NCBI GenBank assembly: GCA_021818335.1
Contig: JAKAEJ010000013.1
Span: 1 to 39,515 of the forward strand
DNA: 39,515 bases
Direction: 5' to 3'
From: Pseudomonadota bacterium
Lineage (GTDB): Bacteria; Pseudomonadota; Gammaproteobacteria; Xanthomonadales; Rhodanobacteraceae
This document shows, piece by piece, positions 1 to 11,540 of this stretch. Below the pieces are notes generated by a model. That model made no database searches. It saw only the letters and a list, made by a program, of their open reading frames with translations, and had not been told where the DNA came from. The number at the start of each line of letters is the position of its first letter. The stretch's first letter is position 1. Made by a program: the position numbers and the translations under genes.

Positions 1-262
1 ACACCGCTTCGTCGGACAGGTCGTAGGCGTGCTTCAGATACAGCAGGCCCGCCATCAGCCGGATCGGCAACGCCGGCCGGCCCGCACCCGCGGGCTCCGG
101 CGGCAGCGTGCCCGCGAGCGCTTCACCGAGTGCATCCCAGGCCATTCGCCCCGCCAGCTTCACCAGCGGATGCCGCAGGTCGATCAGGTTGTCCAGCCGT
201 CGCCGGAACAAATCGTCGCTGCGCTCGGCTGCCGTCTCGCATGCACTCGGACTGTGGCGCAT
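1..262 (-). mobile_element. IS5-family transposase, N-terminal part (runs off window edge)
   Basis: The minus strand is open from an ATG at 262 to the window edge, giving 87 codons without a stop. The translation carries the N-terminal pattern of IS5-group transposases (DUF772 type): a stretch reading DLRHPLVKLAGRMAW, then GRPALPIRLMAGLLYLKH followed by YDLSDEAV. In full-length relatives this domain precedes the DDE catalytic core, which would lie outside the window to the left, so I cannot tell whether the element is intact. The terminal inverted repeat should lie between the start codon and the stop of the thioredoxin gene at 439. A CTAG at 383-386 could mark the insertion point because IS5 relatives favour YTAR targets, but only the other end could confirm this. 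Confidence 0.8.
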
Positions 263-277
263 CGGCGCGTCCCAAAC

Positions 278-314
278 TGCAAGAAACCAGCCGTCAGCAT
301 ACCGATTTCTTGCA
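278..314. repeat. 9-bp perfect inverted repeat upstream of the transposase start
   Basis: TGCAAGAAA at 278-286 is answered by TTTCTTGCA at 306-314 across a 19-base loop. It lies 16 bases upstream of the transposase ATG. It could be a subterminal transposase-binding site, or a hairpin that limits transposase translation. The function is inferred; only the symmetry is seen. Confidence 0.5.
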
Positions 315-438
315 AATCATCCAGGCCCCGCCGGTCACGAAAACCGCATCCGCATTGGCTTTGCGGGATTCTTCAGTGCCGACTAGCTGCAGGCAACCCA
401 GAAATCGCCGGACTGTCGCAAGCGCACAGCACCAAGCA

Positions 439-963
439 CTACTGCCGCTTCGCCCCCAATGCCGCCTCATTGATGAATTGCAGGCTCAGCGATTCCGGAA
501 GTCGACCCTCAATGCGGCCATCAATCCGTCCGTCCACCCCGATGAACAGGTTCGTGGGCGTGACCCGGACGCCGCCGAGCTCATCCGCGATGGTGCCTCG
601 CCGATCCCAAACCAAGGGGAAAGTCACGCCCGCGCGAGCCGCTACCGCTCTCACTACGTCAGGGTCACTGTAAGCCATCGCCACGCCAATCAGAGCCACG
701 CGTGCTCCCGCGCGCTGACTTAGCGCTTGCAGCTCTGCAAGTTCGTCCACACAAGGCGCGCAATCTGGCGCCCAGAAATCAATCAGCACCATTCTTCCAC
801 GCAACTCCGCAAGGTCAATGTGACGACCGCTCAACAAGGTCATCTCGACCGCTGGTACGTGTGTGCCGACGCGACTGTGCCAACTGGGCGCAACCGTCCA
901 CCAAAGCGCTGCCCCGCCTGCGATGGCGAGGGTCAGCGCGATGATTAGGTGATCCCGCCTCAC
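439..963 (-). CDS. Membrane-anchored TlpA/ResA-like thioredoxin
   Basis: 174 residues from a GTG start. One hydrophobic segment (about residues 5-24) anchors the protein in the inner membrane, with the thioredoxin domain in the periplasm. The redox motif CAPC (Cys68, Cys71) sits in the context DFWAPDCAPC, and the cis-proline is seen in VTPTN (about residue 136). TlpA/ResA proteins reduce disulfides, typically in apocytochromes c or other exported targets. The reading frame extends further upstream, but the GTG at 963 overlaps the TAG of the DoxDA gene by one base and gives a sensible membrane anchor, so I chose it. As the last gene of the sulfur cluster it may keep the cysteines of the exported DsrE-like protein, or the CXXCH motifs of the two cytochromes, reduced. 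That role is inferred. Confidence 0.8.
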   Translation of the reverse strand: MRRDHLIIALTLAIAGGAALWWTVAPSWHSRVGTHVPAVEMTLLSGRHIDLAELRGRMVLIDFWAPDCAPCVDELAELQALSQRAGARVALIGVAMAYSDPDVVRAVAARAGVTFPLVWDRRGTIADELGGVRVTPTNLFIGVDGRIDGRIEGRLPESLSLQFINEAALGAKRQ

Positions 964-2030
964 TAACGGGTGAGCGGCAAAGTCCACACGTGCCCGTTCA
1001 CTGATACCAGCTGCAGTGTGTACTGCCCTGGCGAAAGGTTCAGATTGGGCTGCGTGGGCGCGAACTCGACCATGGCTTGTGAGCCAACAGGGCCAACCAA
1101 TCCAAATTTCCCGGCGTGAATCTTCTGATAAGCGAAGTCGTTCTTGAACGCTGCCTTCGGCGTCCGCGCCAACAGCATTCCATCCCATTCCTCGACAATC
1201 TGGCCTCCGGCGCTGACGAGGCTGGCGCGAAGCACATTGGAAGGTTCAGCTGGGGTGCCTGCATCAACGTACGCGTGGAATCGCACGGTGCCATCGGCAT
1301 CAAGTTGGCCTTGGCTCAACGACCAATGGTGCTTGGCTGGGCTGACCGGACCTCCATGGAATGGCGTGACGACCGACCCGCGGTAATGGTTATAGGTCAG
1401 CACGACAAATCCCACGGTGACCCAGAAGAGCACCAGTGCAAGCCTTTTGAACGCGACTTCGGAAACGGGCAGCGGACCTGCGCCGCCAACCCAGTTGAAC
1501 CATTTGCTCGTCGCCCGATTCGGGTTGCGTTTGGTCAACCAGCTATCGATCGAATAGGCGCCGCCACCGGCAAGGAAGAGTGTGATACCCATGCCGAAGT
1601 TGGCCGCGGCCATCGTCCACTCGTCGATGCACGTCGCTCCCTGCCATCCAAACAGGAGCATCAGCACAAAGCTGAGTCCGATCGTGGCCAGCGCCGCCAA
1701 CCGGGTGTAGAGGCCGATGATGAGCATCGCCCCGGCGATCAATTCCACCGCGCTGAAGACGATGACCCCCGCGTACAGGAGCGTGAAGTGCTGCAACAGC
1801 CACGCCACAAGATGATCGGTCCCAAGCAACGCACCTGGCATCGCGGTCTGGAATTTGTATGCCATCCAATGGCCGGATGGATCGATCTTGGAAGGAGCGT
1901 AGATGAATCGGCGCGTTCCACCGCCCCAATAGATCCAACCTTGCACGAAGCGGACTGCGAGCAGGGCGATGGCGGCCATGCGCCAGCCGCGGAGGGTATC
2001 CGGGGTAGCTGGAGATTGGGTCGTGCTCAT
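963..2030 (-). CDS. doxD: Thiosulfate:quinone oxidoreductase, DoxD-DoxA fusion
   Basis: 355 residues. The N-terminal half (about 15-175) is a DoxX/DoxD-type membrane domain with four or five hydrophobic helices. The C-terminal part (about 195-355) begins with a further helix and then a DoxA-like periplasmic domain rich in beta-strand pattern. In Acidianus, DoxD and DoxA are separate subunits of thiosulfate:quinone oxidoreductase (TQO), which oxidises two thiosulfates to tetrathionate and reduces quinone. In acidophilic bacteria such as Acidithiobacillus they occur fused, and this length fits the fused form. It lies between the tsdA-like gene (68-base gap) and the TlpA-like gene (1-base overlap). 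A generic DoxX protein would lack the long C-terminal domain, so TQO is preferred. Confidence 0.8.
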   Translation of the reverse strand: MSTTQSPATPDTLRGWRMAAIALLAVRFVQGWIYWGGGTRRFIYAPSKIDPSGHWMAYKFQTAMPGALLGTDHLVAWLLQHFTLLYAGVIVFSAVELIAGAMLIIGLYTRLAALATIGLSFVLMLLFGWQGATCIDEWTMAAANFGMGITLFLAGGGAYSIDSWLTKRNPNRATSKWFNWVGGAGPLPVSEVAFKRLALVLFWVTVGFVVLTYNHYRGSVVTPFHGGPVSPAKHHWSLSQGQLDADGTVRFHAYVDAGTPAEPSNVLRASLVSAGGQIVEEWDGMLLARTPKAAFKNDFAYQKIHAGKFGLVGPVGSQAMVEFAPTQPNLNLSPGQYTLQLVSVNGHVWTLPLTR

Positions 2031-2098
2031 GGTGAACTCCTCAGGTTCGGATCAGCGGGGCGGTGCCTTGCAGCAGTAGACAGGCAGGAATGCTTCCC

Positions 2099-3094
2099 TC
2101 ATGTGCCTGCCGGTTTTGTGGCGCGCTTGCCGTGGGCTCCAGTCGTGGTCCCCGTCGTGCCTGTACCGGCACCGAGCAGACGACCGTCGACGGAACGGCC
2201 ATAAGTGTCAAAAGGACCAGCATGAAACGCTTCCCGCGTCGCAAGAATTGAACCTAGGTAGCGCGGGTCCTGGGGCCGCTCGTGGCCATCGATGTAATAG
2301 GCCACGTCCCATGCCTGCTGATCGGTAAGGCTGCCGCCATTGCCTAGGGGCATGTTTCCCTTGATGAAGCCGGCCGCCAGGTCCAACCGCGCCATTCCAG
2401 CGCCCCAGTTGTAGGACCGAGATCCCCAAACGGGGGGGAACCAGGGCTTCCCATCCACGAGCAGCCCTTGGCCGTCGGGACTATGGCAGAGCGCGCAGTG
2501 CTGCTCATAAACAGTCTTGCCGCGCGCGTAATTCCAACCTTGGGCCGGTCTCGGCAAGACAGGGTAGCGGGCGCCAGCCAGCAACGCGCCCGTGGGCGCG
2601 CCCTTTGCCATCCAGTATGAATAGGCTTCCAGCGCCACCAGTACAGGGGAACCCAAGGGAGGCGGCTTGCCGTTCATGCTGTAACGGAAGCAGCCCTGCA
2701 ATCGCGCGGCGAACGTGTCGACGCGCCGGTCCTTGCTCCTGTAGGCGGGATAACTGACCCATGCAGCCCACATCGGCGCGCTCCCTGCAAGTCGGCCGGC
2801 GTCGAGATGGCAACTCTGGCAGGTCAGCGAATTGCCAACATACTGCGGCGCGTTTGCCAGGGTGTTGCGGAACAGCGCCTCACCATGTCGGACCTCTGCT
2901 CCAAACGCGTCGTCTGGAATCTCGGACAGCGGTGGCGGGGCAAACACCACCAAGTGAGGCGAAGCTGCTCGTTCATTCCGCGACGCTGCCGTTTCCTGCT
3001 TGGGAACGCCCGGGCGCCCACAACCCGCAAGCACCACGATTGCCGCTGCCAATCCGGCAATGCGCGAAAGGTGCAACGTGCATGGTCTCGTCAT
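2099..3094 (-). CDS. tsdA: TsdA-type diheme thiosulfate dehydrogenase (lipoprotein)
   Basis: 331 residues from the ATG at 3094, which overlaps the TGA of the upstream cytochrome gene (ATGA). The N-terminus is a lipoprotein signal with lipobox LAGC (Cys25), so the enzyme should be membrane-tethered in the periplasm. Two heme sites are visible: CQSCH (92-96) and CALCH (200-204). The motif LQGCFRYSMNGK contains Cys135, matching the conserved cysteine that is the distal ligand of heme 1 in TsdA. FIKGNMPLG supplies Met248 as probable heme 2 ligand. TsdA joins two thiosulfates into tetrathionate and passes the electrons to cytochrome c; some members favour the reverse reaction. The adjacent diheme cytochrome is the natural acceptor. 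A longer open frame runs upstream but lies antisense to nothing useful and overlaps the cytochrome gene, so the start at 3094 is firm. Confidence 0.85.
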   Translation of the reverse strand: MTRPCTLHLSRIAGLAAAIVVLAGCGRPGVPKQETAASRNERAASPHLVVFAPPPLSEIPDDAFGAEVRHGEALFRNTLANAPQYVGNSLTCQSCHLDAGRLAGSAPMWAAWVSYPAYRSKDRRVDTFAARLQGCFRYSMNGKPPPLGSPVLVALEAYSYWMAKGAPTGALLAGARYPVLPRPAQGWNYARGKTVYEQHCALCHSPDGQGLLVDGKPWFPPVWGSRSYNWGAGMARLDLAAGFIKGNMPLGNGGSLTDQQAWDVAYYIDGHERPQDPRYLGSILATREAFHAGPFDTYGRSVDGRLLGAGTGTTGTTTGAHGKRATKPAGT

Positions 3095-3816
3095 GGCCTG
3101 ACCACCGCCGTAGGCACGTTGGAGAGCGTGGGCTGCGCAGCGAAATACAACGACACGGCGCGGATCTGCTCCACGGTGAGGTGCTTGCCAACCGCACCCA
3201 TCAAACCATCCGGACCCACGGGACGTTTGTCGTTTCGCCAGGCCACGAGCTGCCTTTCGAGATAGACGGCTGGCTGCCCGGCAATCGGCGGAAACGCTGC
3301 GCTTAGCGCCCCTCCCAAACCTCGCCCACCCGGGCCATGGCAAGTGACGCATGCCGGCACAGCGCCGCTGCCATGCAGCGCCAGTTGTTCTCCAAGCGCG
3401 GGGGGGTGCACCGTCGCCCCCATCACCGGCGGCGGCACCAAACGAGAAAAATAGGCGGCTAACGCGACGATCTGCGATTCGCTCAAATTGTGCGCAATCG
3501 CCTGCATACTCGGGTTGTCGCGTGCCATCTGGTTGAAATGGCGCAGTTGCCGAATCAGGTAGGGTGCCGGAAGTCCTGCCAGATGGGGGAAAGCGGCCTT
3601 TGTTTTGCCCTGCCCTTCTTCCCCGTGGCAGGTTGCGCAGGAATGCGCACCCTGCGGGCTCCCATGCATGACGATTTGTCGCGCAAGCTCGATTTGCGCG
3701 TCTCGTTCCAGCTGCCCTGCCTCGGACACCGAGACCTTGGATGCTTGCAAGGGAACGGCCGCATGCGCGGCAACACCAAGGAGCAGGCCCACAGCAAACG
3801 CTAGCATTGAACGCAT
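3091..3816 (-). CDS. Diheme c4-type cytochrome, TsdB-like electron acceptor
   Basis: 241 residues with a Sec signal peptide (cleavage near residue 19-20, AHAA). Two class I cytochrome c domains follow one another, with heme motifs CATCH (60-64) and CVTCH (156-160). Likely methionine ligands are Met104 and Met206. This is the duplicated layout of cytochrome c4 and of TsdB, the diheme partner of TsdA. The start at 3816 has a strong ribosome site (GGGAGG, about seven bases upstream). The gene overlaps the tsdA-like gene by four bases, implying translational coupling and joint function: electrons from thiosulfate probably pass through this protein to a terminal oxidase. A general c4 role is the alternative. 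Confidence 0.85.
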   Translation of the reverse strand: MRSMLAFAVGLLLGVAAHAAVPLQASKVSVSEAGQLERDAQIELARQIVMHGSPQGAHSCATCHGEEGQGKTKAAFPHLAGLPAPYLIRQLRHFNQMARDNPSMQAIAHNLSESQIVALAAYFSRLVPPPVMGATVHPPALGEQLALHGSGAVPACVTCHGPGGRGLGGALSAAFPPIAGQPAVYLERQLVAWRNDKRPVGPDGLMGAVGKHLTVEQIRAVSLYFAAQPTLSNVPTAVVRP

Positions 3817-3949
3817 TCGGGACCTCCCGCAAGCGCTCCCTGCCCATTTTGCCTACCACTCCGGCCATGGACGAACAGAACGACATCGCCAAACCGCGTG
3901 CGGACGATGTCGCCGGCAATGCGCGGAACGCGCCGCGCGCCCATCGATG

Positions 3950-4963
3950 CTACTCCTTGGTCGCGTTGATCGGCGCCGCTTTAAACCCGTAGCGCTCGAA
4001 GATCTTCAAAGCCGTTGGCGATCGCAAAAACTGGATCCAGAGCTTGCCTGCTGCGGGGTGCGCCGCACCCTTGACCAGCGCGGCCGCATAGACCGCGGTG
4101 GTGTTGTAGCGCGCAGGGATGTCCACGTGCGCGATGGGATGACCCGCCTCTTCCTGGAAAATGGCCTCGGACTTCCACGTGACTCCGGCATCGCCAAGGC
4201 CCTGCATCAGGAACAGCGGCGTCTGGCGGTGATGAATGTGCGTCAGGATCGTCTCGCCATTCTTCACTTTGGTCTCGTACACCGCCTGCTCAAGTGCGAC
4301 GCCACCAGCCTTGCGAAGACTGGCCTCGATCTGACGCGCCACGCCCTCCCAGGCCGGGTTAGGCATGACGAGGCGCACTCCAGGCTTGCCAAGGTCCGCG
4401 AGACCCGTGACGTGCCCAGGGTTCCCCTTGGGAACCATGATCGTGAGGTCATTGGTGACGTAGGGCACCGCGGGCGCAACCAGCTTGCCGGCGGCAATTT
4501 GTTCCTTCACTTTCTTCAGCCCGGCCGCATAGACATCAGGCGGCACGGTGAAGGTCATGTTGCCCGATGTGAACGTGTTGCCCATGTCCATGGCTTTGAT
4601 CAACAGGCCGGGTGGAATGGTGACGTAGAAGATTCTTCCTCGCAGTTCCGGGTGCTCGGCTTCGAAAGCTTTGACCAGCGGCCCCATCGCGAAGTAGTAG
4701 TTGCCGCCAACGTAAATCACCAACTTGGGATCGTTCACGCTACCGTGAAAGTCGGGCATCGAGTCCACTTCGGGAATGGTGAACTCAAGACCCTTGTGCA
4801 GAGCTGGATTGTTTTCACCCTTCGACCAAGGCGGGTACAGCGTCTCGCTGTACTTGGGCGGGGTCACAGGCCTCCCCGTTTCAGTGGCTTGGACGGTGCC
4901 GAACGCGACCGCGCCCAGCACGCACATCACTGCGGCGAGTAGTGACTTGCTGTGCAGGTTCAT
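3950..4963 (-). CDS. Orphan ModA-like periplasmic solute-binding protein
   Basis: 337 residues with a clear Sec signal peptide (residues 1 to about 26, ending VQA). The start at 4963 has AAGGA seven bases upstream; upstream in-frame codons give no signal peptide. The mature part looks like a type 2 periplasmic binding protein of the molybdate/sulfate-binding class: an early strand LVIYVGGNYYF, then GPLVKAFEAEHPEL, later VTNDLTIMVPKGNPG, and a C-terminal GKLWIQFLRSP with ERYGFKAAP. No permease or ATPase gene is adjacent, so it may supply a distant transporter or act as a binding protein within the sulfur cluster. The ligand cannot be read from the sequence; an oxyanion such as sulfate, thiosulfate or molybdate is an inference from family and context. 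Confidence 0.75.
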   Translation of the reverse strand: MNLHSKSLLAAVMCVLGAVAFGTVQATETGRPVTPPKYSETLYPPWSKGENNPALHKGLEFTIPEVDSMPDFHGSVNDPKLVIYVGGNYYFAMGPLVKAFEAEHPELRGRIFYVTIPPGLLIKAMDMGNTFTSGNMTFTVPPDVYAAGLKKVKEQIAAGKLVAPAVPYVTNDLTIMVPKGNPGHVTGLADLGKPGVRLVMPNPAWEGVARQIEASLRKAGGVALEQAVYETKVKNGETILTHIHHRQTPLFLMQGLGDAGVTWKSEAIFQEEAGHPIAHVDIPARYNTTAVYAAALVKGAAHPAAGKLWIQFLRSPTALKIFERYGFKAAPINATKE

Positions 4964-5064
4964 GGTGGGATCCTTGGAGGAACAGGTCAGTCGCGGGCAT
5001 GCCGCAAGGTATCGCAGATGCCCCGGAACCGCGCCAGATAGGGCACGGCCGGGGCACGAGGGCA

Positions 5065-5619
5065 TTACATGCGCATCAGCGCATAGCCCTGATTTTGCTG
5101 AATGATCAACGTTGATAGTGCCGACAAGGCCACCTTGATGTCAGGATTCACCTCAGCTGGCGTGAACTCCATGTCACCGAGCGCGTTGCCGCACACCATG
5201 ACGTTGACGCCCGCCTTCCTGAGATCGGCGATAACGGCCAGGTTCGGATTCGCGTGGCCAAACTTTGCCATGTAGGCCTTCTCATTCAGCGCAATCGGGG
5301 TCGCGCCACCATGGATGATGACGTCGAACTTCAGGTGGCTGAGCGGCACGCCTGCGGCAGCAAAAGTGTTCACCGCGCGTGCGATATGGTCGAGGCCCGG
5401 ATTGACCTTTTCAGCGGCAGGATTGCCTTGGGTCACATCGAACAAAGCCTTGTAGGTCTTTTTCGCACTGGGCCGGTCAATTGCCTCGGGCCACACATGC
5501 ACGGGGCCATACGCGGAGATGGCTGGTTTGATCCAGAAACCCGCAGGCTGGGCGGCAAAGGCCGAGGCGGACAGCGCCATCGCGGCAGCGACGGCGATCA
5601 GACGGGTATGCAGTTTCAT
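5065..5619 (-). CDS. Exported DsrE-family sulfur-handling protein
   Basis: 184 residues with a Sec signal peptide (cleavage near ASAFA, residue 22). The rest matches the DsrE/YchN-type fold: LKFDVIIHGGATPIAL in the middle, then ADLRKAGVNVMVCGNALG, where the cysteine in VMVCGN sits at the position used by DsrE proteins to bind or carry sulfur. DsrE-like proteins usually work as sulfur carriers or in sulfur-transfer complexes; this one should act in the periplasm. The ribosome site GAGGAGG lies five bases before the ATG. It is the first gene of the sulfur cluster, with palindromes 85-115 bases upstream. Exported DsrE proteins often neighbour cytochromes and sulfur oxidation genes, but a precise reaction is not known to me. 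Confidence 0.75.
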   Translation of the reverse strand: MKLHTRLIAVAAAMALSASAFAAQPAGFWIKPAISAYGPVHVWPEAIDRPSAKKTYKALFDVTQGNPAAEKVNPGLDHIARAVNTFAAAGVPLSHLKFDVIIHGGATPIALNEKAYMAKFGHANPNLAVIADLRKAGVNVMVCGNALGDMEFTPAEVNPDIKVALSALSTLIIQQNQGYALMRM

Positions 5620-5704
5620 ACAGCCTCCTCAGTGTTCGACAGGGTGGGTGATTCAACCTAGCCGAACAACCTTACGCTGCACTTGCGGTCCGCGCCAGTC
5701 GAAA

Positions 5705-5734
5705 TTCAACATGTCGAATATAAGCCAGGCTTAT
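5705..5734. promoter_or_regulatory. Two adjacent palindromes upstream of the sulfur cluster
   Basis: ATAAGCC-A-GGCTTAT at 5720-5734 is a perfect 7+1+7 palindrome. Next to it, TTCAACATGTCGAA at 5705-5718 is a 14-base palindrome with a single mismatched pair. They lie 86-115 bases upstream of the DsrE-like start, where a promoter is expected, and a -10-like TATATT overlaps the pair on the minus strand. This looks like an operator for a dimeric repressor or activator. The regulator is not encoded in this window. Confidence 0.5.
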
Positions 5735-5803
5735 CGACTTGCCTCGAATGGTGCTTTGCAACAATCAACTCGCACCGCCTGCAACTCCGGTATCGGTGCG
5801 TCA

Positions 5804-6559
5804 CTAAACGTGCGTTGCACGACCCCCATCGACAGGTAATACGCTCCCCGTAACGTAACGCGCCGCTGCAAGGTAACGCACTGCGCCAGCCACGTCGCCG
5901 GGCGTGCCGATGCGACCCAGTGCCGTGCCGCGAGCAAGTTGGGCCATCGTCTCAGCGCGATCATCGCTCTCGGCCCAAAGCACCGTGCCAGGAGCCACGC
6001 CGTTAACGCGTATTCCATCAGGACCAAAGGCTCGTGCCAGTGCCTGCACCAGCATCCCGCCTGCCGCACGGCTGATACTGTAGGCCTCATAGCCGGGCAA
6101 CGGTCGCTGGGCGTATAGGTCCAGGATGAAGACAATGCTGGCGTCGCCTCGCAACGCCACACCCGCCGTCAATTGAGGCCGCAAGCGGAGGGCAAGATCC
6201 CACGCCGAAACGACATTTACTTCGAGGAACGTCCGAAGTTCGGCGTTTCGTTGCGCCGGGTCGGCAGCGAGATCGCTTCGGCGGTATCGAGATGCATTGA
6301 GAACCATCAGATCGAGCGGTTTGTCGCCGATGTCAGCGCAAAGCGCGGCGCGCGAACCTTCATCGCCCAACTCGCTCGTGACAAGACGCGCGCTGCCAGC
6401 CCGCAACGCCTCGAAGCGTGTTGCAGCGACATGCGCCTCCGTCCGCAAGGCACGCGAATGGAGAATCAAGTCGTATTCGTCGTGAAGCTGCTTCGCAATT
6501 TCCGCACCAACGCGACGACCGGCGCCAGTGATCAATGCTCGGGGCTTCGGCTCCATCAT
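5804..6559 (-). CDS. Pteridine reductase-like SDR with Lys-to-Arg active site
   Basis: 251 residues, a short-chain dehydrogenase/reductase. TGAGRRVG (11-18) has the arginine-bearing TGxxxRxG form used by NADPH-dependent pteridine reductases and FolM-type dihydrofolate reductases. NAS at 88-90 replaces NAG, and ILDL (Asp147) occupies the catalytic serine position, again as in pteridine reductases. The catalytic YxxxK is YSISR here: Tyr160 is kept but the lysine is Arg164 (codon CGT), which is unusual. RPLPGYEAYSISRAA and the C-terminal GSVLPVDGG are otherwise normal. Two ATGs open the frame (6559, 6556); GGAG stands five bases ahead of the first. It likely reduces dihydropterins or folates, but the substitution leaves activity uncertain. 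It is separated from the sulfur cluster by about 185 bases. Confidence 0.7.
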   Translation of the reverse strand: MMEPKPRALITGAGRRVGAEIAKQLHDEYDLILHSRALRTEAHVAATRFEALRAGSARLVTSELGDEGSRAALCADIGDKPLDLMVLNASRYRRSDLAADPAQRNAELRTFLEVNVVSAWDLALRLRPQLTAGVALRGDASIVFILDLYAQRPLPGYEAYSISRAAGGMLVQALARAFGPDGIRVNGVAPGTVLWAESDDRAETMAQLARGTALGRIGTPGDVAGAVRYLAAARYVTGSVLPVDGGRATHV

Positions 6560-6627
6560 CGAATCTCCGGCTGGCTAGCTTCGATCAACTGTGGCACAAG
6601 GCGCACGCGAGGGCGCGCGGACTCCTG

Positions 6628-8772
6628 TCATAGCCGCGCCAAATCCGCGATGCCATTGAAGGCATGCTGGATCGCCGCAAGCAGCGCAAGCCTGTTGGCG
6701 CGCATTGCCAAGTCATCCGTGATCACCATGACTTCGTCAAAAAACCGAGCGATCGGACCGTCCAGATTTGCTAAGGCCGATAAGCCCGATGCGTAATCGC
6801 GAGCAGCGATCGATTGCAAACTGGAATGTTGAGCAGCCCCAAGAGCTTGAGCTAGCTCTCGCTCCGCGGGAGCTTCGAGCAATGCAGGATTGATCTCCGC
6901 GGCAGGCATATCGCCCGCTTCGGCTTGTCGGCGCAAGATGTTGGCCACGCGCTTGTTCGCCGCAGCCAGCGTCGCGCACTCGGGCCGCTGCGTGAACGCC
7001 ACGGTTGCACGAAGCCTCCGGTCAAGGTCCGCAAGGCTCGCCGGCCGAATGGCCAGAACAGCGTCGAATGCGCCTTGCGCAATGCCGCGCTCCGCATAGT
7101 AGCCGCGCAGGCGCTCCCCAATGAACCGCTCGATTTCATCCGCGAGGAGCACACGATCCGTGTCGGCCGAATGCGCGCTGGAAGACGACTCGCGACCGGC
7201 CGCGAGCGCGCGGTCAGGAATCGCTTCCAGCGCCTCGCGGAGCAACGCGTGGGTGTCGAGCTCCATGTCGCCCTCGATTAACGTACGCGCCAAGCCAAGC
7301 GCTGCTCGCCGCAACCCATAAGGGTCCTTTGCGCCGCTCGGCCTGCCGCCGATGGCGAACAGTCCGGCCAAGGTGTCTGCGCGTTCGGCCACGGCCACGA
7401 CCCTTCCCAACAGGCTGGACGCGATGTCGTCGCCTGCGTTTCGCGGCATGTAGACTTCATCCAGCGCCCGCGCAATTGCAGGCGATTCACCCTGCGCCGC
7501 CGCATACGTGCGGCCCATGACACCCTGAAGCTCCGGGAACTCTCCGACCATGCGAGTGAGCAGATCGCACTTGGCCAGGCTCGCTGCGTGCGCGGCCTCG
7601 GCGGCGTCCGCACCCACTCGTCCGGCGATCAGGCGGGCCAGCTGCGCAACACGCAGCGTTTTGTCCCAGAGTGAGCCTAGGGCCGGTTGGTCCACCACCG
7701 CAGACAATCCTTGCTGATGGGTGGCCAGCGGAGTCTTCAAGTCCTCTTCAAAGAAGAACTTCGCGTCAGCAAAACGCGGTCGGATGACTCGCTCGTAGCC
7801 GTGACCCACCTTGGTTTCATCCATGCTCTCAATGTTCGCCACACCGATAAAGCGCGGCAGCAGTTGACCCGCGTCGCCGAGCAAGGGGACGAATTTTTGG
7901 TTACCCACCATGGAACCGATCAATGCCTCCTGCGGCACGGTCAGGAACGACGCGTCAAACGTGCATGCCACCGCCACCGGCCACTCCGTGAGGTTGGCGA
8001 TCAGGTCGAGTAATTCGGGACCAAGCAGGGGGTGGCCACCAATCCGAGCCGCCGCCCTTGCCACCTCGCCGTGAATGCGATGGCGGCGTTCTGCGGGATC
8101 GACGATCACCTTGGCAGCCCTCAGCGCTTCTACATAGGCGTCCGCGTCGGCGATCCGGACGGGTCGGTCATCCATGAAGCGGTGCCCGCGCGAGTGGCGC
8201 GTAGCTCGTATGCCGAACAGCTCCGCATCAATCTCTTGATCACCATGCAGAACGACAAGCCATTGCAATGGCCTCACAAAGCTATAGTCGTGGCTGCTCC
8301 ACCGCATTGGCTTCGCGACGGGCAGCCCCTTTACAACTGTTGCCAAGATATTCGACAGCAGTGTCGCCAATGGCTGCCCGGCTCGTTCGATGGCGCAGAC
8401 GAATCGCTCGCCCTTGTCGGTCAACTCACGAAGCAGCGACGCCACGTTCACGCCATTCCGAGCCGCGAAGCCCAGAAGTGCAGGAGTGGGCTTGCCCTCG
8501 GGATCCAGTCCAACGGCCACCGATGGACCATACACTTTTGAACTTCGGTCGCGTTGCCGCGGTGCGACGTTCGGAATGCGGACCGCCAAACGCCGCGGGG
8601 TGCAAAACGCACGTACTTTGGCGGCGCCATCGTCATCAAACGGGATGTCATGCGCACTCAGCGCTTTCCGCAAGCCTTGCAGCAATGCCTCAGCCAAATG
8701 ATCCACTGCACCGACTGGCAATTCTTCGGTGCCAAGCTCTATCAGGAGCGTCCGCGCCGCTGCATCAGACAT
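6628..8772 (-). CDS. glyS: Glycyl-tRNA synthetase beta subunit
   Basis: 714 residues from the ATG at 8772 ([19 protein letters not shown]), the usual length and N-terminus of bacterial GlyS. Family landmarks include [70 protein letters not shown] and a C-terminal region ending in [18 protein letters not shown]. The beta subunit carries the tRNA-binding parts of the alpha2beta2 enzyme that charges tRNA-Gly in the cytoplasm. The start codon lies eight bases before the end of glyQ, so translation is probably coupled. An upstream in-frame extension exists but lies inside glyQ. Confidence 0.97.
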
Positions 8773-9673
8773 GACTCGCCCCTGTCTTGCGCAACCCCGG
8801 GAACCCCATTTGCTCCCTTCGTGCCACGTAAACCTCCGCGACGCCACGGGCCAACGCTCGTACGCGCAGGATCATCCGCTGACGTTCGCTAACGCTGATG
8901 GCGCGCCGCGCATCCAGCAAGTTGAAGCTGTGACTCGCCTTGCATACCTGGTCATAGGCCGGCAATGGAAGACCCAGAGCAATTAATTTCTGCGCTTCGG
9001 CCTCGCAGGCTTCAAAGCGATGTCGCATTTCAGCTACGTCAGCATGTTCAAAATTGTAGGCGCTCTGTTCAACTTCGTTCTGCAGAAAGACCTCTCCATA
9101 AGTAACTGTGCCATCGGGTGCCCGCGTCCAAACCAGATCGAAGACGTTGTCGACGTCCTGCAAGTACATGGCGAGCCGCTCCAACCCATAGGTGATTTCG
9201 CCCGTAACCGGGCGACATTCCAGACCGCCCGCCTGCTGAAAATAGGTGAACTGGGTCACCTCCATTCCGTCGAGCCATATTTCCCAGCCCAATCCCCACG
9301 CGCCCAAGGTCGGCGACTCCCAGTTGTCCTCAACCAGGCGCAGGTCATGTACGAGCGGATCAATCCCGAGAGCCTTGAGAGATCCTATGTAACGGTCGAG
9401 TATGTCTTCGGGATTGGGCTTCATCACGACCTGATACTGGTAGTAGTGCTGCAGGCGATTAGGATTCTCGCCATAGCGCCCGTCGGCTGGGCGCCGGCAG
9501 GGCTGTACATACGCTGCTGCCCAGGGCTCGGGTCCGAGCGCACGCAGGAAAGTCGCGGGATGAAACGTACCCGCGCCGACTTCCGTGTCGAATGGCTGGA
9601 CCAGTACACAGCCTTGTTCCGCCCAGTAGCGGTTCAGCGTCTGGATTACATCCTGAAAGCTAGGACCCGACAT
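8765..9673 (-). CDS. glyQ: Glycyl-tRNA synthetase alpha subunit
   Basis: 302 residues from the ATG at 9673 ([17 protein letters not shown]). The sequence is highly typical: [55 protein letters not shown], and [19 protein letters not shown]. This subunit holds the catalytic site that activates glycine and transfers it to tRNA-Gly together with GlyS. A TTG-initiated form eight residues longer (from 9697) is possible but adds nothing conserved. A -10-like TATACT at 9706-9711 lies upstream on the minus strand. The divergent neighbour on the plus strand is the GspE-like ATPase gene. Confidence 0.97.
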
Positions 9674-9734
9674 GGGCGATTCCGGTCGATTGCACAAAGC
9701 GAGCTAGTATACGGAGCCACCGCACGAGGTGTTG

Positions 9735-11540
9735 ATGGTCACGCAACCCAATCCGCCGATGCCGCTGGGCCGCCGCGGTCGCCTGGAACTGGATGAGGTG
9801 CTGGCAGCTCTGGTCGCCGACGGGCGATTGACCGCCGATGATGCTCGAATGCTGCGATCGAGGTCGCGGCCGCAACGCGCTGGCCGAAGCACGATCGACA
9901 TTCATCCGCTGGTCCTGATTGGTAATGCTGAATTTGAAGACCGCACCAACCCTGGGCGCCCACTGAGCGTCGAACGGCTTGCGGAGTGGCTGGCTGGCAA
10001 AGCAGGCCTCCCATACCTGCGTATCGACCCGACCAAGATCGATGTCGCGAGGGTCACGCAAATCGTCAGCCAAGCCTATGCACAGCGCCACCGTATCCTT
10101 CCCGTCAACGTTACGCCGGAAACCGTGACGTTCGCGAGTGCCGAGCCCTTTGACGCCAATTGGGCCAAGGACCTCGCGCCAATGCTGCGACGCGATGTTC
10201 ACCGGGTAGTCGCTAATCCCATCGAAATCCACCGCTATCTGGCGCAACTCTATGGGGTGCAGCGATCGGTCCAGCTGGCGCGAGAAGCCGGCGCCGAGAA
10301 TGCGCCTAATGCAATCCTCAACTTCGAGCAGCTGGTTGAACTGGGCAACGGAGGTGAACTGGGTGCCGACGACCGCCATGTGGTCAACATCGTTGACTGG
10401 CTGCTCCAATACGCCTTTGAGCAGCGGGCCTCTGACATTCACCTCGAACCTCGTCGGGAGATGGGTCGCGTCCGCTTCAGGATCGACGGCGTCCTGCACA
10501 GCGTCTTCGAGCTGCCGCCACAGGTTCAGTCCGCGGTGACCGCCCGAATCAAGATTCTGGCCCGCATGGACGTCGCGGAACGACGGCGACCGCAGGATGG
10601 TCGCATCAAGACCCGATCCTCCGGTGGTCGTGAAGTCGAATTGCGAATCTCGGCCATGCCGACCGCATTTGGCGAAAAAGTCGTGATGCGCATCTTCGAT
10701 CCGGACATCGTGGTGCGTAGCTATGCCGAACTGGGCTTCGATGCGCACGAGGAAGTGCTCTGGCGCTCGCTGGTTGAGCGGCCACACGGGATCGTGCTCG
10801 TCACGGGACCGACCGGGTCGGGAAAAACGACCACTCTTTATTCCACACTTAAGCACTTGGCCCGGCCTGAAATCAATGTCTGTACCATTGAGGATCCAAT
10901 CGAGATGGTGGCGTCGGAGCTGAATCAAATGCAGGTGCAACCAGCTCTGGACCTGGACTTCGCCGCCGGTGTCCGTACGCTGCTGCGTCAGGACCCCGAC
11001 ATCATCATGGTCGGCGAGATTCGCGATCTTGAAACAGCGCACATGGCCGTGCAAGCTGCATTGACGGGACACCTAGTTCTGTCCACGCTTCACACAAATG
11101 ACTCGGCCAGTGCAATTACGCGGCTTCTCGACCTCGGAGTACCCCATTATTTGGTCCAGTCCACATTGGCCGGAGTCGTCGCACAACGACTGCTGCGCAC
11201 ATTGTGCCCGCACTGCAAACGCGAATCGCAGCTTGATCAGACGCTATGGCGGTCGTTGACCCAAGGATATGAAGTACCGCTGCCCGCGCGCACCTTCGAG
11301 CCAGTAGGCTGCGTCGAGTGCCGCCAGACTGGCTACAGAGGCCGCATCGCGGTGTATGAAATGCTTTCGCTGAATCCGGCGCTCCGTGCGAGCATTGATT
11401 CCGCGTTTGACCTCGGGACTTTTGGCGATCTAGCGCGGCGCGCCGGGCTCCGGCCCTTGCGCATTGCCGGCGCTGCCGCGGTTGCGCGCGGAGTCACGGG
11501 GCTCGAGGAGGTCCTCGCCGTGCTTCCGCTAGCCCAATGA
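9735..11540 (+). CDS. GspE/PilB-type secretion ATPase, orphan
   Basis: 601 residues. The N-terminal third resembles the MshEN/T2SSE_N domain (VTFASAEPFD is its signature-like strand). The core has the Asp-box region around DIHLEPR, Walker A GPTGSGKTTT (about 357), the Walker B segment DPDIIMVGEIRD (about 420) and the His box HLVLSTLHTND. Two CXXC pairs, CPHC (about 491) and CVEC (about 526), form the zinc site found in PilB/GspE. Such ATPases drive assembly of type IV pili or type II secretion pseudopili. No pilin, platform or secretin genes are nearby, so the partner machine is unknown. Three in-frame starts occur (GTG 9729, TTG 9732, ATG 9735); the ATG has GAGG five bases ahead and is preferred. 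Confidence 0.88.
   Translation: MVTQPNPPMPLGRRGRLELDEVLAALVADGRLTADDARMLRSRSRPQRAGRSTIDIHPLVLIGNAEFEDRTNPGRPLSVERLAEWLAGKAGLPYLRIDPTKIDVARVTQIVSQAYAQRHRILPVNVTPETVTFASAEPFDANWAKDLAPMLRRDVHRVVANPIEIHRYLAQLYGVQRSVQLAREAGAENAPNAILNFEQLVELGNGGELGADDRHVVNIVDWLLQYAFEQRASDIHLEPRREMGRVRFRIDGVLHSVFELPPQVQSAVTARIKILARMDVAERRRPQDGRIKTRSSGGREVELRISAMPTAFGEKVVMRIFDPDIVVRSYAELGFDAHEEVLWRSLVERPHGIVLVTGPTGSGKTTTLYSTLKHLARPEINVCTIEDPIEMVASELNQMQVQPALDLDFAAGVRTLLRQDPDIIMVGEIRDLETAHMAVQAALTGHLVLSTLHTNDSASAITRLLDLGVPHYLVQSTLAGVVAQRLLRTLCPHCKRESQLDQTLWRSLTQGYEVPLPARTFEPVGCVECRQTGYRGRIAVYEMLSLNPALRASIDSAFDLGTFGDLARRAGLRPLRIAGAAAVARGVTGLEEVLAVLPLAQ

Follow-up and report, generated by a model that had tools for sequence, protein, structure and literature searches.

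Why should a single bacterial locus carry genes for two different enzymes predicted to act on thiosulfate? The question is raised by six adjacent minus-strand genes in the first 5.6 kb (439-5619) of a 39,515-nucleotide stretch of DNA, hereafter the window, which is contig C24 (JAKAEJ010000013.1) of a 2.19 Mb genome, 77% complete, of the family Rhodanobacteraceae. The genes encode a DsrE-family protein, a solute-binding protein (SBP), the cytochrome TsdB, TsdA, the fusion protein DoxDA and a TlpA-like protein (Table 1). Judging from sequence comparisons, we consider it likely that they form a thiosulfate-oxidation operon: DsrE and SBP would be a periplasmic front end common to two alternative electron outlets (TsdBA and DoxDA).

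A preliminary description of the window gave this six-gene set with exact coordinates, together with two equally exact overlaps, the ATGA common to the cytochrome and TsdA genes (3091-3094) and the single base shared by the DoxDA and TlpA-like genes at 963. The remaining intergenic gaps are 101, 133 and 68 bases long, and no terminator-like site was found in them. The operon proposed there is a prediction backed by the genus: ten further genomes of the genus have DoxDA, eight of them with TsdA next to it, so that nine of the 11 genomes, including the window, have the same set, and the other two have no TsdA beside DoxDA. Several relatives are metagenome bins. As a relative's metagenome-assembled genome (MAG) is colinear with positions 383-8082 of the window at 97.5%, the six-gene locus is not an assembly artefact, and a chimaera was rejected.

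Table 1. Coordinates of the genes at the thiosulfate locus, and of one gene site that is empty in the window.
Feature	Positions	Strand	Basis
TlpA/ResA-like membrane-anchored thiol-disulfide oxidoreductase (CAPC)	439..963	-	AhpC-TSA/ResA matches
DoxDA fusion, putative thiosulfate:quinone oxidoreductase	963..2030	-	Pfam DoxD and DoxA
TsdA, diheme thiosulfate dehydrogenase/tetrathionate reductase	2099..3094	-	best solved match 5lo9; heme-ligand residues
TsdB, diheme c-type cytochrome that accepts electrons from TsdA	3091..3816	-	TsdB half of 5lo9
Site of a second SBP gene (~257 aa), missing in the window	3817..3949		present in seven genus relatives
SBP, periplasmic, of the sulfate/molybdate-binding kind	3950..4963	-	Pfam SBP_bac_11
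Secreted DsrE-family protein of the front end, in the slot that TSD fills in Acidithiobacillus	5065..5619	-	Pfam, AlphaFold, alignment, profile link

Identity of the two outlets

The best solved match of TsdA is the TsdA half of Marichromatium purpuratum TsdBA (5lo9 residues 242-515; 310 bits), and Allochromatium vinosum TsdA is matched at 174 bits. Pfam detected SoxA/TsdA and cytochrome domains. The protein carries two heme motifs (CQSCH at 92 and CALCH at 200), the cysteine ligand of heme 1 (Cys135, in GCF) and the methionine ligand of heme 2 (Asn247-Met248, NM); both CxxCH motifs, Cys135 and Met248 are unchanged across 29 homologues. The adjoining cytochrome had been listed as a separate diheme protein. 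It is indeed diheme, with two Pfam cytochrome domains, but it is TsdB, the usual electron acceptor of TsdA: it is matched best by the TsdB half of the 5lo9 chain (residues 14-192, E 7.6e-29), and its gene overlaps tsdA. An unrelated c4 protein was considered and rejected. The tsdB-tsdA pair is a split form of the known Marichromatium fusion; both halves match, and the window shares the heme motifs and both heme ligands (Cys and Met) with M. purpuratum TsdBA and A. vinosum TsdA, but has two overlapping genes with DsrE-SBP upstream and DoxDA downstream. The lineage had been regarded as one not usually noted for thiosulfate oxidation, but 53 of the 147 family genomes proved to have a TsdA match.

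TsdA enzymes are bidirectional, and TsdA might act here as a tetrathionate reductase, with TsdBA and DoxDA opposed in a thiosulfate/tetrathionate redox shuttle that links quinone with cytochrome c. Asn stands before the methionine of heme 2, as in the reductase-biased TsdA of Campylobacter jejuni (CjTsdA), whereas A. vinosum has Lys208 (PMC5146829). Nevertheless, the N254K exchange failed to make CjTsdA oxidase-adapted, so that Asn alone does not set the direction, and CjTsdA does not reduce TsdB, the acceptor of TsdA in other organisms, which is encoded in the window (PMC5146829). We regard the shuttle as improbable.

The second outlet, DoxDA, is a chain of 355 residues holding both DoxD (PF04173, 93.5 bits) and DoxA (PF07680, 46.9 bits), each above its cut-off; the profile test thus refuted neither this assignment nor that of TsdA, both made in the preliminary description. 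The domains and their order are those of DoxD and DoxA of Acidianus ambivalens, a thiosulfate:quinone oxidoreductase (TQO), but the window has them in one fused chain, which scores under the cut-off of the strict archaeal TQO model. A PDB profile search with DoxDA gave nothing meaningful, and the viral contigs scanned with it yielded no match. The TlpA-like gene starts with GTG, and its product matches AhpC-TSA at 58.7 bits (Pfam); a TlpA/ResA-like gene also stands near DoxDA in genus relatives and in Dyella and Acidithiobacillus loci.

A portable front end

Two parallel routes had been predicted for the locus, and the identities of TsdA and DoxDA uphold this; what had been missed is the wider context of the front end. 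The SBP (337 residues; SBP_bac_11, 176.5 bits) has the sulfate-binding SubI and Sbp as its nearest solved structures, and it also matches molybdate and sulfate models. No ATP-binding cassette (ABC) permease was found at the locus or elsewhere on contig C24, the three permease matches of the genome lying on contigs C56 and C11. As contig C24 has no such permease, a role of the SBP in an ABC importer of the CysP/Sbp type was rejected. The DsrE protein (184 aa; Pfam DsrE, 44.0 bits) has a signal peptide.

A scan with a DoxDA alignment returned 79 named loci, 70 of which had at least 2.5 kb of upstream flank and were used for counts. DoxDA loci came from Acidithiobacillus, Acidocella, Acidicaldus, Bradyrhizobium, Sphingomonas, Dyella, a Nitrospirae MAG and many other MAGs. 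In 51 of the 70 loci an SBP gene on the strand of DoxDA lies no more than 3.5 kb upstream of it, and in 42 the distance is less than 300 bp. The slot before the SBP in those 51 loci is taken by a secreted DsrE (23 loci), by TSD (23), by another DsrE-like protein (2) or by an unrecognised gene (3), and no locus has both DsrE and TSD by profile. TSD is the characterised thiosulfate dehydrogenase of Acidithiobacillus, the activity being that of Kikumoto 2013 as cited in PMC6335251; here it was recognised by its position and a twin-arginine translocation (Tat)-type signal in Acidithiobacillus ferruginosus, not from the AFE_0042 sequence itself. In 20 other Rhodanobacteraceae neighbourhoods of TsdA, TsdB precedes TsdA in every case, DsrE-SBP precedes TsdB in 14 and DsrE follows TsdA in four, and no DoxDA was found near TsdBA. 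DsrE-SBP is consequently partnered with DoxDA only, with TsdBA only or, in the window's genus, with both. Given this recurrence, we conclude that DsrE or TSD plus SBP is a portable, swappable periplasmic front end. Dyella mobilis (L063/L089) has a tandem DsrE pair, followed by an SBP, a second SBP and DoxDA.

The same recurrence bears on another explanation, in which two independent thiosulfate oxidases share an operon by chance, and DsrE and SBP serve a sulfur relay or the uptake of sulfate or molybdate. Both families have such roles elsewhere, and the SBP does match molybdate and sulfate models. Nevertheless, the DsrE protein is secreted, the SBP has no ABC permease on its contig, and the DsrE-SBP pair is met again beside DoxDA without TsdBA and beside TsdBA without DoxDA; we find coincidence unlikely.

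Part of this organisation has been described before, as the tsd-sbp-doxDA-rhd-resA cluster of Acidithiobacillus (AFE_0041-AFE_0050; PMC6335251 Fig. 6, PMC2621215), the genes of which respond to the iron/sulfur switch in A. ferrooxidans arrays (PMC2754497). It has in common with the window a gene in the thiosulfate-dehydrogenase slot, a sulfate/molybdate-type SBP, a DoxDA fusion and a ResA/TlpA-like protein, the SBP and DoxDA being homologous (~69% identity to A. ferruginosus). It differs in that (i) the slot holds a Tat-exported TSD, whereas the window has DsrE with an ordinary signal peptide, (ii) TsdB-TsdA is absent, and (iii) a rhodanese is present, which the window lacks. The locus is a single instance of a wider pattern, part of which was known, and the earlier statement that no operon of exactly this set had been described holds for the addition of TsdBA but not for the remainder. 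The literature searched, which left out many subscription papers, yielded no account of the TsdBA combination, of the exchangeable front end or of a relationship between DsrE and TSD. The gene before tsd in one Acidithiobacillus locus (L077:5316-6509), annotated as a C4-dicarboxylate/malic acid transporter, encodes an anion channel of the SLAC1 family (300 bits) and is a candidate for the transport of a sulfur oxyanion.

Probable relationship between DsrE and TSD

The AlphaFold model of the DsrE protein (pLDDT 88) matches 2pd2 (TM 0.89 by target), 1l1s, 1jx7 and 2hy5 with a Foldseek probability of 1.00, the first two being the best solved matches, and thus has the DsrE superfamily fold. Cys143, in VCGNAL, is invariant in the alignment. 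The fold and the conserved cysteine region are common to DsrEFH, TusBCD and archaeal DsrE proteins; the window protein differs from these in being secreted, in having ~50 extra N-terminal residues and in being linked to thiosulfate oxidases, not to Dsr/Hdr genes. Its position is that of TSD, though in the window TsdBA separates SBP from DoxDA.

Direct searches did not connect the two proteins. Pfam gave no DsrE match for TSD, a PDB profile search with TSD returned nothing meaningful, and the window DsrE is not a direct sequence member of the TSD (AFE_0042) family, as the deep DsrE profile finds no TSD frames. A shallow profile comparison was suggestive only (probability 10.7; score 27.4 against 26.8 for the best shuffle, reached by none of 200). 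The deep comparison, of 58 DsrE with 29 TSD sequences, scored 39.3 and 43.6 in the two directions, while the best of 300 column shuffles scored 25.3 and none reached these values; control profiles of four unrelated families (SBP, DoxDA, TsdA and TsdB) scored 13.8-20.5 against TSD and 14.6-20.9 against DsrE. The alignment is co-terminal, and Cys143 falls on the invariant cysteine of TSD (CHN). A. ferriphilus and A. ferrianus have a third DsrE-like protein, which scored 50.4 against TSD and 49.2 against DsrE, with 93-94% probability each. This secreted protein is encoded upstream of SBP-DoxDA (L118:7575-8674 in A. ferriphilus; L090:4201-4698 in A. ferrianus), and in L118 a weakly DUF302-like protein follows it. 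We hold it very probable from these profiles that DsrE and TSD are homologous and that TSD belongs to the DsrE superfamily. Because DsrE belongs with TSD, the locus may encode three thiosulfate-active proteins.

Several points weigh against a thiosulfate operon with a shared front end. The DsrE-TSD link comes from profile comparisons only, since the AlphaFold model of TSD (19 sequences) has a pLDDT of 50, too poor to confirm the fold, and DsrE might carry sulfur in a process that does not involve thiosulfate. DoxDA reaches 85 bits over residues 20-176 on the strict TQO large-subunit equivalog NF041179, whose cut-off is 300, and is thus a DoxD homologue, not an equivalog member; for fused DoxDA proteins of bacteria, the literature searched gave no direct biochemical proof. 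The sample of loci, chosen by DoxDA similarity to the window, is biased to close relatives.

Origin of the combined operon

The SBPs of the window and of the other loci with both outlets lie inside a DoxDA-type clade (100/98) of the SBP tree, and long branches set them apart from 12 TsdBA-type SBPs of the family. This grouping indicates that TsdBA probably entered a DoxDA operon, a direction that we infer from a midpoint-rooted tree in which some long branches meet. The SBPs of two loci with TsdBA only (L194 and L206) fall among DoxDA-type SBPs, those of Dyella included, suggesting that outlets were exchanged more than once. The TsdAs of combined operons form one clade (95/83). On the simplest reading of these trees, TsdB-TsdA would have been inserted once, in the window's genus, between the SBP and DoxDA of a DsrE-SBP-DoxDA operon, and lost in some copies. 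A second SBP gene stands between SBP and TsdB in the seven genus loci L057-L060, L062, L064 and L065; it is absent from the window and from L056, a close relative, and no remnant was detected in the window gap.

Genome G129 carries a second copy of the module (L061), without TsdBA, whose second SBP (L061:10380-10900) is reduced to residues 23-87 and 228-252; this copy is a decaying or trimmed version of the module. It would fit a recent and possibly non-functional insertion of TsdBA in one lineage, as would the two genus genomes without TsdA beside DoxDA. Nevertheless, the TsdAs of the genus keep all heme ligands despite divergence to ~56% identity, and we consider such an insertion highly improbable.

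Flanking sequence

The contig end falls inside the apparent N-terminal part of an IS5-like transposase (1-320, minus strand; family judged by eye). L056 is colinear with the window from 383 on but not at lower positions, so that an insertion probably lies just downstream of the operon. A 470-aa open reading frame (9660-11072, minus) is antisense to a secretion/pilus ATPase-like gene (9729-11540, plus) and looks like a chance reading frame of GC-rich DNA.

Proposed mechanism

If the operon works as a front end with two outlets, the SBP would bind thiosulfate (or tetrathionate) in the periplasm, and the invariant cysteine of DsrE would handle the thiosulfate group, either as a carrier or in a first oxidation step. 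The repeated linkage suggests these roles, as do the conserved cysteine, the secretion signals, the sulfate-type character of the SBP and the contig's lack of a permease. TsdA, through its Cys-ligated heme, would join two thiosulfates to tetrathionate, with the electrons going first to TsdB and then to cytochrome c, while the membrane protein DoxDA would send electrons to quinone; both activities are established for the families. The TlpA/ResA-like protein may keep cysteines in the reduced state, either those of DsrE or DoxDA or those of heme sites. It is attractive to speculate, as a possibility short of probable, that DsrE or TSD and the permease-less SBP form a periplasmic thiosulfate-loading complex feeding interchangeable oxidases, with TSD a DsrE-type carrier or partner and not a stand-alone dehydrogenase. 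With TSD in that role, the failure of the purified protein to reduce quinone or cytochrome c would be accounted for.

Implications

SoxB was not found in the 11 genus genomes (the search for SoxY was made without a positive control), and the operon would thus be the likely main periplasmic route of thiosulfate in these genomes. Record names, together with the presence of acidophiles among further carriers, suggest an acid-mine or sulfidic habitat. The physiological acceptor of TSD and the role of the SBP beside DoxDA are questions in bioleaching and acid-mine biology, for which genomes with both outlets behind one front end, set against single-outlet genomes, provide a natural comparison. The probable placement of TSD in the DsrE superfamily suggests thiosulfonate chemistry on a conserved cysteine, and may offer a lead for a family that Pfam misses.

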